Program-made: the position numbers and the translations under genes | Notes under the pieces: model-generated | Seen by the model: the letters and a program-made list of their open reading frames with translations, nothing else | The model's database searches: none | What the model was told of the DNA's origin: nothing | Shown here: positions 53,471 through 55,063 of the stretch, piece by piece | Numbering within the stretch: position 1 is the first letter of the stretch | Layout: each line of letters opens with the position of its first letter | NCBI RefSeq assembly: GCF_003952485.1 | Contig: NZ_CP034447.1 | Coordinates: forward strand, 5,718,501 to 5,782,500 | Source of the DNA: Mesorhizobium sp. M1E.F.Ca.ET.045.02.1.1 | GTDB taxonomy: Bacteria; Pseudomonadota; Alphaproteobacteria; Rhizobiales; Rhizobiaceae | DNA length: 64,000 nucleotides | Direction of reading: 5' to 3'

Positions 53471-53608
53471 TCAGCGGCGCACCAAACGCAGCTTCCGCCT
53501 GCGCGTCGCCGGCTCCGCCGCGCGCTGCCGCTCAGGCCGGTCGACCGCCGGCGAGATGCCCCAATAGTTGCGATAGATGTCCTGGAAGAGATGGCTGATC
53601 GGATGCAT
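53471..53608 (-). CDS. Microprotein B (45 aa), paralog of microprotein A
   Basis: A 45-aa frame starting MHPISHLFQDIYRNYWGISP. ATG 53608 has AGAGGA 9 nt upstream, and the 14-bp palindrome at 53625-53638 sits before that site. The first 21 residues match the protein at 53666-53809 at 13 positions (MHP-S-LF-D-Y-N-WGI-A). The tail is Arg-rich. No membrane segment or known fold. Two conserved paralogs with ribosome-binding sites argue for a real gene. Confidence 0.68.
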   Translation of the reverse strand: MHPISHLFQDIYRNYWGISPAVDRPERQRAAEPATRRRKLRLVRR

Positions 53609-53624
53609 GGCTGATTTCCTCTGA

Positions 53625-53638
53625 TTGAATCGATCCAA
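53625..53638. promoter_or_regulatory. LacI-type operator candidate 1
   Basis: TTGAATCGATCCAA, a near-perfect 14-bp palindrome centred on ATCGAT. It is 16 bp upstream of the start of microprotein B. The same sequence occurs at 53900 and, inverted, at 53850. Confidence 0.72.
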
Positions 53639-53665
53639 TTTTTCAGCACGAAAAAGAACCGCCCC

Positions 53666-53809
53666 TCAGGCGCGCTTGCGCCCCACGATGAAGCGTGGCT
53701 CGCGCTTCCACGGGCTTGCCTTGCCGCGCCGCTTTTCGCTCGTTGCGGCCGAGGCAATGCCCCAGTCGTTCTTGTAGAAGTCCTCGAACAAATAGCTGAC
53801 CGGATGCAT
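53666..53809 (-). CDS. Microprotein A (47 aa)
   Basis: A 47-aa frame starting MHPVSYLFEDFYKNDWGIAS. ATG 53809 follows a strong AGGAGGG 6 nt upstream. The C-terminal half is basic (KRRGKASPWKREPRFIVGRK). Paralog of microprotein B at 53471. An operator-like palindrome lies at 53850-53863, upstream. The basic tail would fit nucleic-acid or membrane binding, but that is speculation. Confidence 0.7.
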   Translation of the reverse strand: MHPVSYLFEDFYKNDWGIASAATSEKRRGKASPWKREPRFIVGRKRA

Positions 53810-53849
53810 GGCACCCTCCTTCTTTCAAATCCGCTCGGGAGAAGCTGTC

Positions 53850-53863
53850 TTGGATCGATTCAA
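53850..53863. promoter_or_regulatory. LacI-type operator candidate 2
   Basis: TTGGATCGATTCAA, the complement of the other two copies. It is 41 bp upstream of the start of microprotein A, 36 bp from the third copy. Confidence 0.75.
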
Positions 53864-53899
53864 ATCATATGCTCGCCGCACTCGAAGTCAAGCAGGAAT

Positions 53900-53913
53900 T
53901 TGAATCGATCCAA
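53900..53913. promoter_or_regulatory. LacI-type operator candidate 3
   Basis: TTGAATCGATCCAA, 71 bp upstream of the lacI-type gene at 53984. Together with candidate 2 it frames the divergent promoter region. Confidence 0.75.
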
Positions 53914-53983
53914 GAAAAATGTTAGATGACCGGCAACCATTCCGCGGTCATGTTCGTGATGTGACAGGATTCGGAGGAACGAC

Positions 53984-55063
53984 ATGGCATCACCCATCGA
54001 AGGCCAGGCACGACCCATCCGGCTGGCGGATATCGCCAAGGCGGCTGGCGTCTCGCATGGCACGGCCTCCAATGTCTTCAGCCGCCCGGAGATCGTGCGC
54101 CAGGAAGTGCGCGAGCGGGTCAAGGCAGTGGCGGAGGCGATGGGTTATGCCGGGCCCGATCCCAAGGGGCGCCTGTTGCGCGCCGGCAAGGTCAATGCCA
54201 TCGGCGTCGGCACGACCGAGCCCCTCTCCTATTTCTTCGAGGATCCCTTTGCCCGCGTCATGATGGCCGGCATCTCCGAAGCCTGCGACGCCACGGGCGC
54301 GGGCATCGCACTGGTCTCAGCCGCCAACCAGGAAAAGCTCGCCTGGAACATCCAGAGCGCGCTTGTCGACGGCTTCATCCTATTCTGCATCGAAGGCGGC
54401 TCGCGCCTTGTCGACCTGACGCGCGAGCGCAGGCTGCCCTTCGTGGCGCTGGAACTCGGCTTCGAGGACGAAACCGTCTCGGCGATCGGCGTCGACAATG
54501 TCGCAGGCGCCAGGCTTGCAGCGCGCCACCTTGCCGAGCTCGGCCATCGCCGTTTCGCGGTGCTGTCGCTGGCCTTTGCCGACGACCGCACCGGCTTCGC
54601 CACGCCGGAAATCGTGCACAGCGCGCTCTACACAGGAACACGCGACCGCCTTGCCGGCTATTTCGAGGAGCTCTCCCGCTTCGGCATCAATACGGCGAAG
54701 ATCCCGGTCTACGAGACCGAAAATGAAGAGAAGAGCACCAGGGCCGGGCTCGAGGCGATCTTCGCGGGCAACAAGCGGCCCAGCGCCATCCTGGCGATGT
54801 CGGACAGGATGGCGCTGATCGCCATCGAATGGCTGACCGCGCGGGGGCTCAAAGTGCCGGAGGATGTCTCCATCGTCGGCTTCGACGGCGTGCCGGACGG
54901 CGCGCTCTGCGACCCGCCGCTGACCACGATCGCCCAGCCGATCACCGAGATCGGGCGGCGGGCGGCGCGCATGATCCTCGACTTCGACGGCGCGGTACGG
55001 CGCGAGACGATGGGTGTCGAGCTCGTCGTCAGGGCCTCGACCGGCCCTGCCCCGAGGATCTGA
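53984..55063 (+). CDS. LacI/GalR-family regulator
   Basis: A 359-aa repressor. The N-terminal HTH is IRLADIAKAAGVSHGTASNV (about residues 11-30), followed by the hinge region, then a periplasmic-binding-protein-like ligand domain (INAIGVG-like KVNAIGVGTTE near 70, RLAARHLAELGHRRFAVLSL near 175, DVSIVGFDGVPDGALCDPPL near 295). The ligand is probably a sugar or nucleoside. GGAGG precedes ATG 53984. Operators of identical sequence lie upstream of itself and of the two microprotein genes. Confidence 0.92.
   Translation: MASPIEGQARPIRLADIAKAAGVSHGTASNVFSRPEIVRQEVRERVKAVAEAMGYAGPDPKGRLLRAGKVNAIGVGTTEPLSYFFEDPFARVMMAGISEACDATGAGIALVSAANQEKLAWNIQSALVDGFILFCIEGGSRLVDLTRERRLPFVALELGFEDETVSAIGVDNVAGARLAARHLAELGHRRFAVLSLAFADDRTGFATPEIVHSALYTGTRDRLAGYFEELSRFGINTAKIPVYETENEEKSTRAGLEAIFAGNKRPSAILAMSDRMALIAIEWLTARGLKVPEDVSIVGFDGVPDGALCDPPLTTIAQPITEIGRRAARMILDFDGAVRRETMGVELVVRASTGPAPRI

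Follow-up and report, generated by a model that had tools for sequence, protein, structure and literature searches.

The window, by which we mean the whole stretch of 64,000 nucleotides that was analysed, carries in its region 53471–55063 two very small genes on the minus strand, microB and microA, and the gene of a LacI-family regulator on the plus strand. The first-pass annotation had claimed tandem frames of 47 and 45 aa between a DUF423 gene and a LacI gene, and such frames are indeed found at 53666–53809 and 53471–53608. The features of the locus are the following:

53666..53809, minus strand: microA, 47 aa; the protein starts MHPVSYLFEDFYKNDWGI and has a basic tail
53471..53608, minus strand: microB, 45 aa; the protein starts MHPISHLFQDIYRNYWGI and has a basic tail
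53984..55063, plus strand: gene of the LacI-family regulator, 359 aa, with the HTH AAGVSHGTASNVFSRP
53850..53863, no strand: operator O2, an exact palindrome directly downstream of the microA -10 box, in a conserved position
53900..53913, no strand: operator O3, an exact palindrome on the regulator side, 8 bp upstream of the microA -35 box
53625..53638, no strand: operator between microA and microB, an exact palindrome whose near edge is 17 bp from the microB start
53886..53891, minus strand: -35 hexamer TTGACT of the microA promoter, from a consensus scan
53864..53869, minus strand: -10 hexamer TATGAT of the microA promoter, abutting O2, from the same type of scan

The gene order GntR, MFS, DUF423, microproteins, LacI, OpgC, hydrolase is largely kept in 34 same-genus loci from 33 genomes, some of which end at contig ends or carry insertions. 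In same-genus loci, microB is placed between microA (or the regulator) and DUF423. When open reading frames filtered by codon composition were clustered across 39 loci, no neighbour besides LacI recurred in more than two of five families. Beside LacI loci, RDD-like and arginyltransferase-like genes were seen in eight genera, hemB-like genes in seven and DUF423-like genes in five, all four names having been assigned by eye from sequence. Between microA and microB, at 53660–53672, there is a weak terminator-like stem with a T-run. As a terminator it was rejected, since this one weak five-pair match compares with 0.6 expected and is no more than chance.

The two microproteins have 13 of their first 21 residues in common, as counted by eye, and the recount agrees with the figure given originally. 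Both frames had also been credited with good ribosome-binding sites; this is true of microA (GAAGGAGGG), whereas the site before microB (AGAGGAAA) is only fair. Codon differences in both microproteins favour third positions. Frame-neutral substitution, named in the first-pass annotation as a finding that would speak against these genes, is thus ruled out. For microA, pN/pS is 0.13 in codons 1–18 and 0.52 after them (29 sequences), and for microB the corresponding values are 0.15 and 0.62 (33 sequences), counting only frames that start MHP, VHP or MRP and are shorter than 56 aa and leaving out the single frame of locus L029, the microA of L035 and the broken microA of L043. Selection that is strong on codons 1–18 and weak after them fits the idea of a shared core with divergent tails, which may have different partners. 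Both microproteins are under purifying selection, and the selection pattern together with the conservation rules out spurious small frames. In L043 (genome G020), the microA frame is interrupted and microB is intact.

In a tblastn search, microA was matched in 34 of 61 genomes, its own included, and all matches fell within its own genus (34 of 37 genomes); 24 genomes of other families, one from each, gave no match at that sensitivity. The proposed search for homologs elsewhere thus found them in abundance within the genus, beside LacI and the palindrome. Possession of two microproteins is the state of one lineage, and some relatives carry one, as do the genomes G005, G024 and G036. At three loci of the genus (L196, L197 and L198), there is one microprotein frame only, which has the usual N-terminus but is 130–137 aa long, and an additional MFS-like gene separates it from DUF423.

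Neither microA nor microB belongs to a family in Pfam, NCBIfam or PHROGs; no Pfam family was matched at E values up to 1, and a match to PF06568 (DUF1127) is absent for both. Their AlphaFold2 models show no confident fold (mean pLDDT 57–58, pTM 0.15–0.19). The titles and abstract openings surveyed contain no account of these microproteins or of the LacI circuit, and a search for LacI in PMC12218461 and PMC10117765 came back empty.

The 14-bp palindrome TTGRATCGATYCAA is present in three exact copies, at 53625, 53850 and 53900, precisely as had been claimed. The central CG had been taken as a LacI-family feature, and TTGRATCGATYCAA is indeed even and CG-centred in all three copies, which is how LacI-family operators are described in the part of PMC4052901 used here. 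At two or fewer mismatches, the window contains five matches against a mean of 0.73 in shuffled sequences, and none of 100 shuffles reached five. The genome search proposed in the first-pass annotation showed that the palindrome is not scattered: in the whole genome (7.35 Mb), TTGRATCGATYCAA occurs exactly three times, each time at the microprotein–LacI locus, and copies with one mismatch occur at four places elsewhere. A reversed control pattern had zero matches in every genome scanned for exact operators. The shuffles, the genome-wide confinement and this control together rule out a chance palindrome.

Exact operator copies are present in 56 of 61 genus genomes, with three copies in 43 genomes, two in ten, four in two, one in one and none in five. 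Counted over 34 genus genomes, one of them the window's own, the locus accounts for 94 of 95 exact copies, and the remaining one is a site in G018. Among the named genomes, exactly three exact sites lie near the match in 69 of 80 loci, two in nine and one in one; these 80 loci were kept from 106 found, and the zero at L164 stems from a wrongly assumed position and is no finding. The start of O3 is 50 bp from that of O2 in the window and 46–50 bp in most loci tabulated. At least three operator-like sites were counted in 49 of 60 tabulated LacI loci (four of them from the same genus), two in two, and none or one in nine, and in 42 of the 60 the sites are spaced by 31–36 and then 46–50 bp. In other genera, too, the second microprotein has a site in front of it, for example at L187 and L189. 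At 53815–53828 a half-operator-like remnant, TTTCAA, was noticed by eye. Its position, at a distance of about 35 bp from the operator at 53850, is where other loci carry a third operator, and the ribosome-binding site of microA overlaps with it.

The regulator does not always travel with the microproteins and the sites. In G714, a genome of the same genus (locus L306, G714:C1:372500-377500), a 71% identical LacI has been kept; 81 bp separate it from the DUF423 stop, and both the microgenes and the upstream operators are missing, which speaks against a strict pairing of regulator and microproteins. Four other genus genomes without operator sites have no LacI ortholog (identities up to 35%).

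The microA promoter, which the first-pass annotation did not mention, lies between the two upstream operators. It is of the sigma-70 type, TTGACT-N16-TATGAT, runs on the minus strand from 53891 to 53864 between O3 and O2, and is the single promoter-like match in the consensus scan, where 0.2 are expected. Of 35 genus loci examined, 29 yielded an O3–O2 interval, and CTTGA is present in 28 of these; in the wider comparison of LacI loci, TTGA starts 6–8 bases after O3 in 29 of 30 extracted intervals. A steric block of this promoter is the natural reading of how repression would work.

The regulator itself is an ordinary LacI-family member. It matches the Pfam families LacI (PF00356; 41.6 bits, cut-off 27) and Peripla_BP_3 (PF13377; 111.5 bits, cut-off 26.5), and so has the family architecture of an N-terminal HTH and a periplasmic-binding-protein-like effector domain. 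No NCBIfam equivalog scored above its cut-off, and the best paralog in its own genome is 34% identical. LacI orthologs were found at E≤1e-90 in 25 of 297 family genomes, and the regulator was matched at E≤1e-65 in 55 of 397 order genomes. In a sample of the class, one of 384 genomes besides the window's own was matched at E≤1e-75, and that match is without operators. The LacI proteins of other genera of the family are 54–70% identical to the window's regulator, and the regulator–promoter unit is present in several families of the order. A search of named plasmids for orthologs of the regulator gave a best match of 40%, and such a search with a second ortholog as query gave none at 1e-70.

Sites and recognition helix vary together. 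In half-sites located by a finder that itself rewards T or C beside the CG centre, and over residue changes that amount to few independent events, the base beside the centre goes with the identity of the residue that comes after AGVS in the recognition helix, which is His25 in the window's regulator: with His (VSHGTA) 82 of 86 half-sites have T, with Lys all 30 have C and with Leu all 4 have G, and Gln (VSQGTA) gives a mixture (T in 91 and C in 61 of 158). The variant HTH VSHGTV at L283 pairs with C in 6 of 6 half-sites, and therefore the His residue alone does not set the base. In six genomes with ACCGGT-type sites, all 13 exact sites are beside the LacI gene, and this type has zero copies in the window's genome.

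Beyond the genus, a divergent small gene lies upstream of LacI in nearly all fetched loci at about 50% identity or above, L255 being an exception. Three kinds of protein recur in this slot. The first, MHPxxxLFEDIYRNxWGI, is found in Mesorhizobium and six other genera; the second, MIPASYLFxxxY, is diverged and has variable tails; the third comprises DUF1127-like proteins of 74–92 aa. The N-terminal motif is common to the MHP and MIPASYLF kinds, and we found no relation between it and the DUF1127-like kind. Slot proteins were assigned to class a, b, c or other by eye and with Pfam; L273 and L245 were labelled DUF1127-like without a PF06568 match, the starts of the L249 and L284 frames were chosen by motif, and the frames at L252, L253, L277 and L283 could not be placed in any class. 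PF06568 was matched at E≤0.03 in 8 of 12 slot proteins tested, ten labelled DUF1127-like and two unclear, and three of the matches are above the curated cut-off. Mean arginine content in the three kinds is 16.5, 13.0 and 14.6%.

Within the family, a profile built from both microproteins was matched in 15 of 297 genomes at E≤1e-3, and all 15 are among the 25 genomes with a LacI ortholog at E≤1e-90. With the same profile, the order-wide sample gave only same-genus genomes and G368 below E 0.001, and the weaker matches look like chance. Searches of 35 genomes with a 20-row alignment, A4, placed all 23 solid matches to MxP-type proteins beside LacI, 117–282 bp away; because many rows of A4 come from the searched genomes, their own matches are expected and only the absence of second copies is informative. 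The same search gave two weak matches (E about 0.08) away from LacI and no solid match in 12 genomes with DUF1127-like or other slot proteins.

In a LacI tree of 70 rows, 57 rows of slot classes a, b and c plus two others form one supported group (99/99), with the placement of long branches unsure, nine same-genus rows being tblastn segments with gap and stop signs removed, and L234, a duplicate of L270, left out. The class of the slot protein changes 8 times on this tree, against a shuffle mean of 38.

Taken together, the near-exclusive sites, the conserved geometry of sites and promoter and the covariation of sites and helix strongly support the original proposal of a LacI circuit that would repress the microproteins and itself. 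Comparison among genomes supports the predicted arrangement of regulator, operators and promoter, the conservation of the proteins and the confinement of exact sites to the locus; from these we infer binding, repression, an effector and autoregulation and, with low certainty, the microproteins' mode of action. The microproteins look like the regulator's only close targets. We consider it fairly probable, judging from sequence comparison, that the regulator is an effector-released LacI repressor dedicated to one or two small arginine-rich regulatory proteins that act in trans. In such a circuit, the regulator would bind two or three 14-bp operators bracketing one strong promoter and would thereby silence both its own gene and the divergent gene of the small protein. 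Release would come from a small effector molecule, probably a sugar or a derivative of one, to judge from other members of the family. The induced product would be one or two small arginine-rich proteins with a conserved N-terminus, M[H/I]P..[Y/F/H][L/F]F...., and a fast-evolving tail. Acting in trans, these proteins may bind RNA or another protein, the latter in the way DUF1127 proteins bind sensor kinases, and may thus adjust carbon or phosphate physiology. The role in trans is suggested by analogy: the slot is taken by DUF1127 proteins in sister genera, and proteins of that family bind partners.

Could the microproteins instead act on the regulator itself, as anti-repressor or co-repressor, in a closed feedback loop with no outside target? 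The exclusive adjacency of MxP-type proteins to LacI and the agreement of protein class with the LacI tree (8 changes versus 38) would suit such a loop. However, linkage alone explains the tree signal, LacI stays 54–70% identical across other genera of the family in which the small protein has given way to unrelated or strongly diverged ones, LacI persists without microproteins in G714, and the known partners of DUF1127 proteins, as given in part of PMC12501420, are other proteins or RNA. We therefore regard the loop as unlikely. The solitary LacI of G714 might also mean that the main targets of the regulator are distant sugar genes with imperfect sites, the microproteins being a minor branch, in the manner of global LacI regulators such as PckR. 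Imperfect operator copies at the locus itself in relatives, and the four one-mismatch sites elsewhere in the window's own genome, which are possible further targets, agree with this account. Yet exact sites are almost confined to the locus in 34 genomes, and the changed ACCGGT sites are likewise confined to it in six. Moreover, since all exact sites of the own genome are at the locus, pckA, edd and zwf, the PckR targets listed in the part of PMC4052901 used here, carry none. Control of distant sugar genes thus seems decidedly improbable as the main function.

It is more improbable still that the transcript works as a regulatory or dual-function RNA, the small frames playing a secondary part. 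The combination of a strong promoter with very short genes could be so interpreted, and elsewhere small RNAs are encoded in one operon with CcaF1, an arginine-rich small frame (PMC12501420, in part), but the third-position bias, the pN/pS of 0.13–0.15 over codons 1–18 and the conservation of the N-terminal motif across genera all speak for translated proteins. Rfam likewise gave no match up to E 0.1, which rules out a known structured RNA.

How does a repressor dedicated to small proteins compare with known systems? AglR, ThuR and other local autoregulated LacI repressors of sugar operons, described in part of PMC4052901, resemble the window's regulator in the LacI/Peripla_BP_3 architecture, the CG-centred palindromes, the divergent target, autoregulation (here predicted) and a peak of intersite distances at 32 bp. 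According to the same part of that study, 182 LacI groups have an assigned pathway, and 176 of these regulate carbohydrate metabolism. Here, in contrast, no transporter or enzyme gene has an exact site, and the close target is one or two lineage-variable tiny proteins: in the own genome, every exact site lies upstream of a microgene or of the regulator, and a single site departs from this rule in 33 other genomes of the genus. PckR, GapR and GluR are also alphaproteobacterial LacI-family regulators (PMC4052901, in part), but they are predicted to control many genes, whereas the exact sites here are locus-confined; the comparison with PckR covers the distribution of exact sites.

The closest parallels on the side of the small proteins are DUF1127 proteins such as the A. 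tumefaciens SDPs, CcaF1 and YjiS (PMC12501420, in part). Like them, the window's proteins are small and arginine-rich, and in other genera the slot next to the orthologous regulator holds DUF1127-like proteins, although the window's microproteins have neither a DUF1127 match nor a detectable sequence relation to them. In Agrobacterium, DUF1127 proteins bind the sensor kinase PhoR (PMC12501420, in part), and in Brucella three DUF1127 small proteins under VtlR are linked to fucose use (PMC12595884, in part). VtlR is similar in being a conserved regulator with small proteins as its main targets; unlike the regulator studied here, which is of the LacI type and has a divergent adjacent target, it is of the LysR type, regulates positively and counts an sRNA among its targets, as far as the consulted part of PMC12595884 goes.

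Judging from the titles and abstract openings surveyed, three things are apparently undescribed: a LacI dedicated to tiny proteins, a microprotein family missing from the family libraries, and a conserved switch whose occupant changes. The microproteins are a small-protein family absent from Pfam, NCBIfam and PHROGs, and they are easy to study because regulator, sites and promoter are predicted to the base. Sister genera carry DUF1127-like proteins at this switch, and the locus therefore links an uncharacterised family with one whose partners are emerging and lets one ask whether unrelated tiny proteins can be functional equivalents. If the LacI is dedicated to tiny proteins, small-protein modulators would seem to be one more route by which rhizobia and their kin relay sugar signals. 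The switch may be an old one dedicated to small regulatory proteins. More tentatively, and with some doubt on our part, the LacI with its three-operator promoter could be an old cassette serving as a socket for exchangeable small regulatory proteins, MxP-type, DUF1127-like and others, that lineages have swapped. If so, functionally equivalent small effectors without sequence similarity would plug into one physiological signal.

Among more distant relatives, eight of nine f11 loci, in which LacI is 44–52% identical, have at most one operator-like site, a further point against a strict pairing. At L261 (genome G260), a distant LacI relative (43%) is accompanied by two TTGAAGCGCTTCAA sites 55 bp apart, and the divergent frame there, of 147 aa, looks membrane-protein-like by eye.
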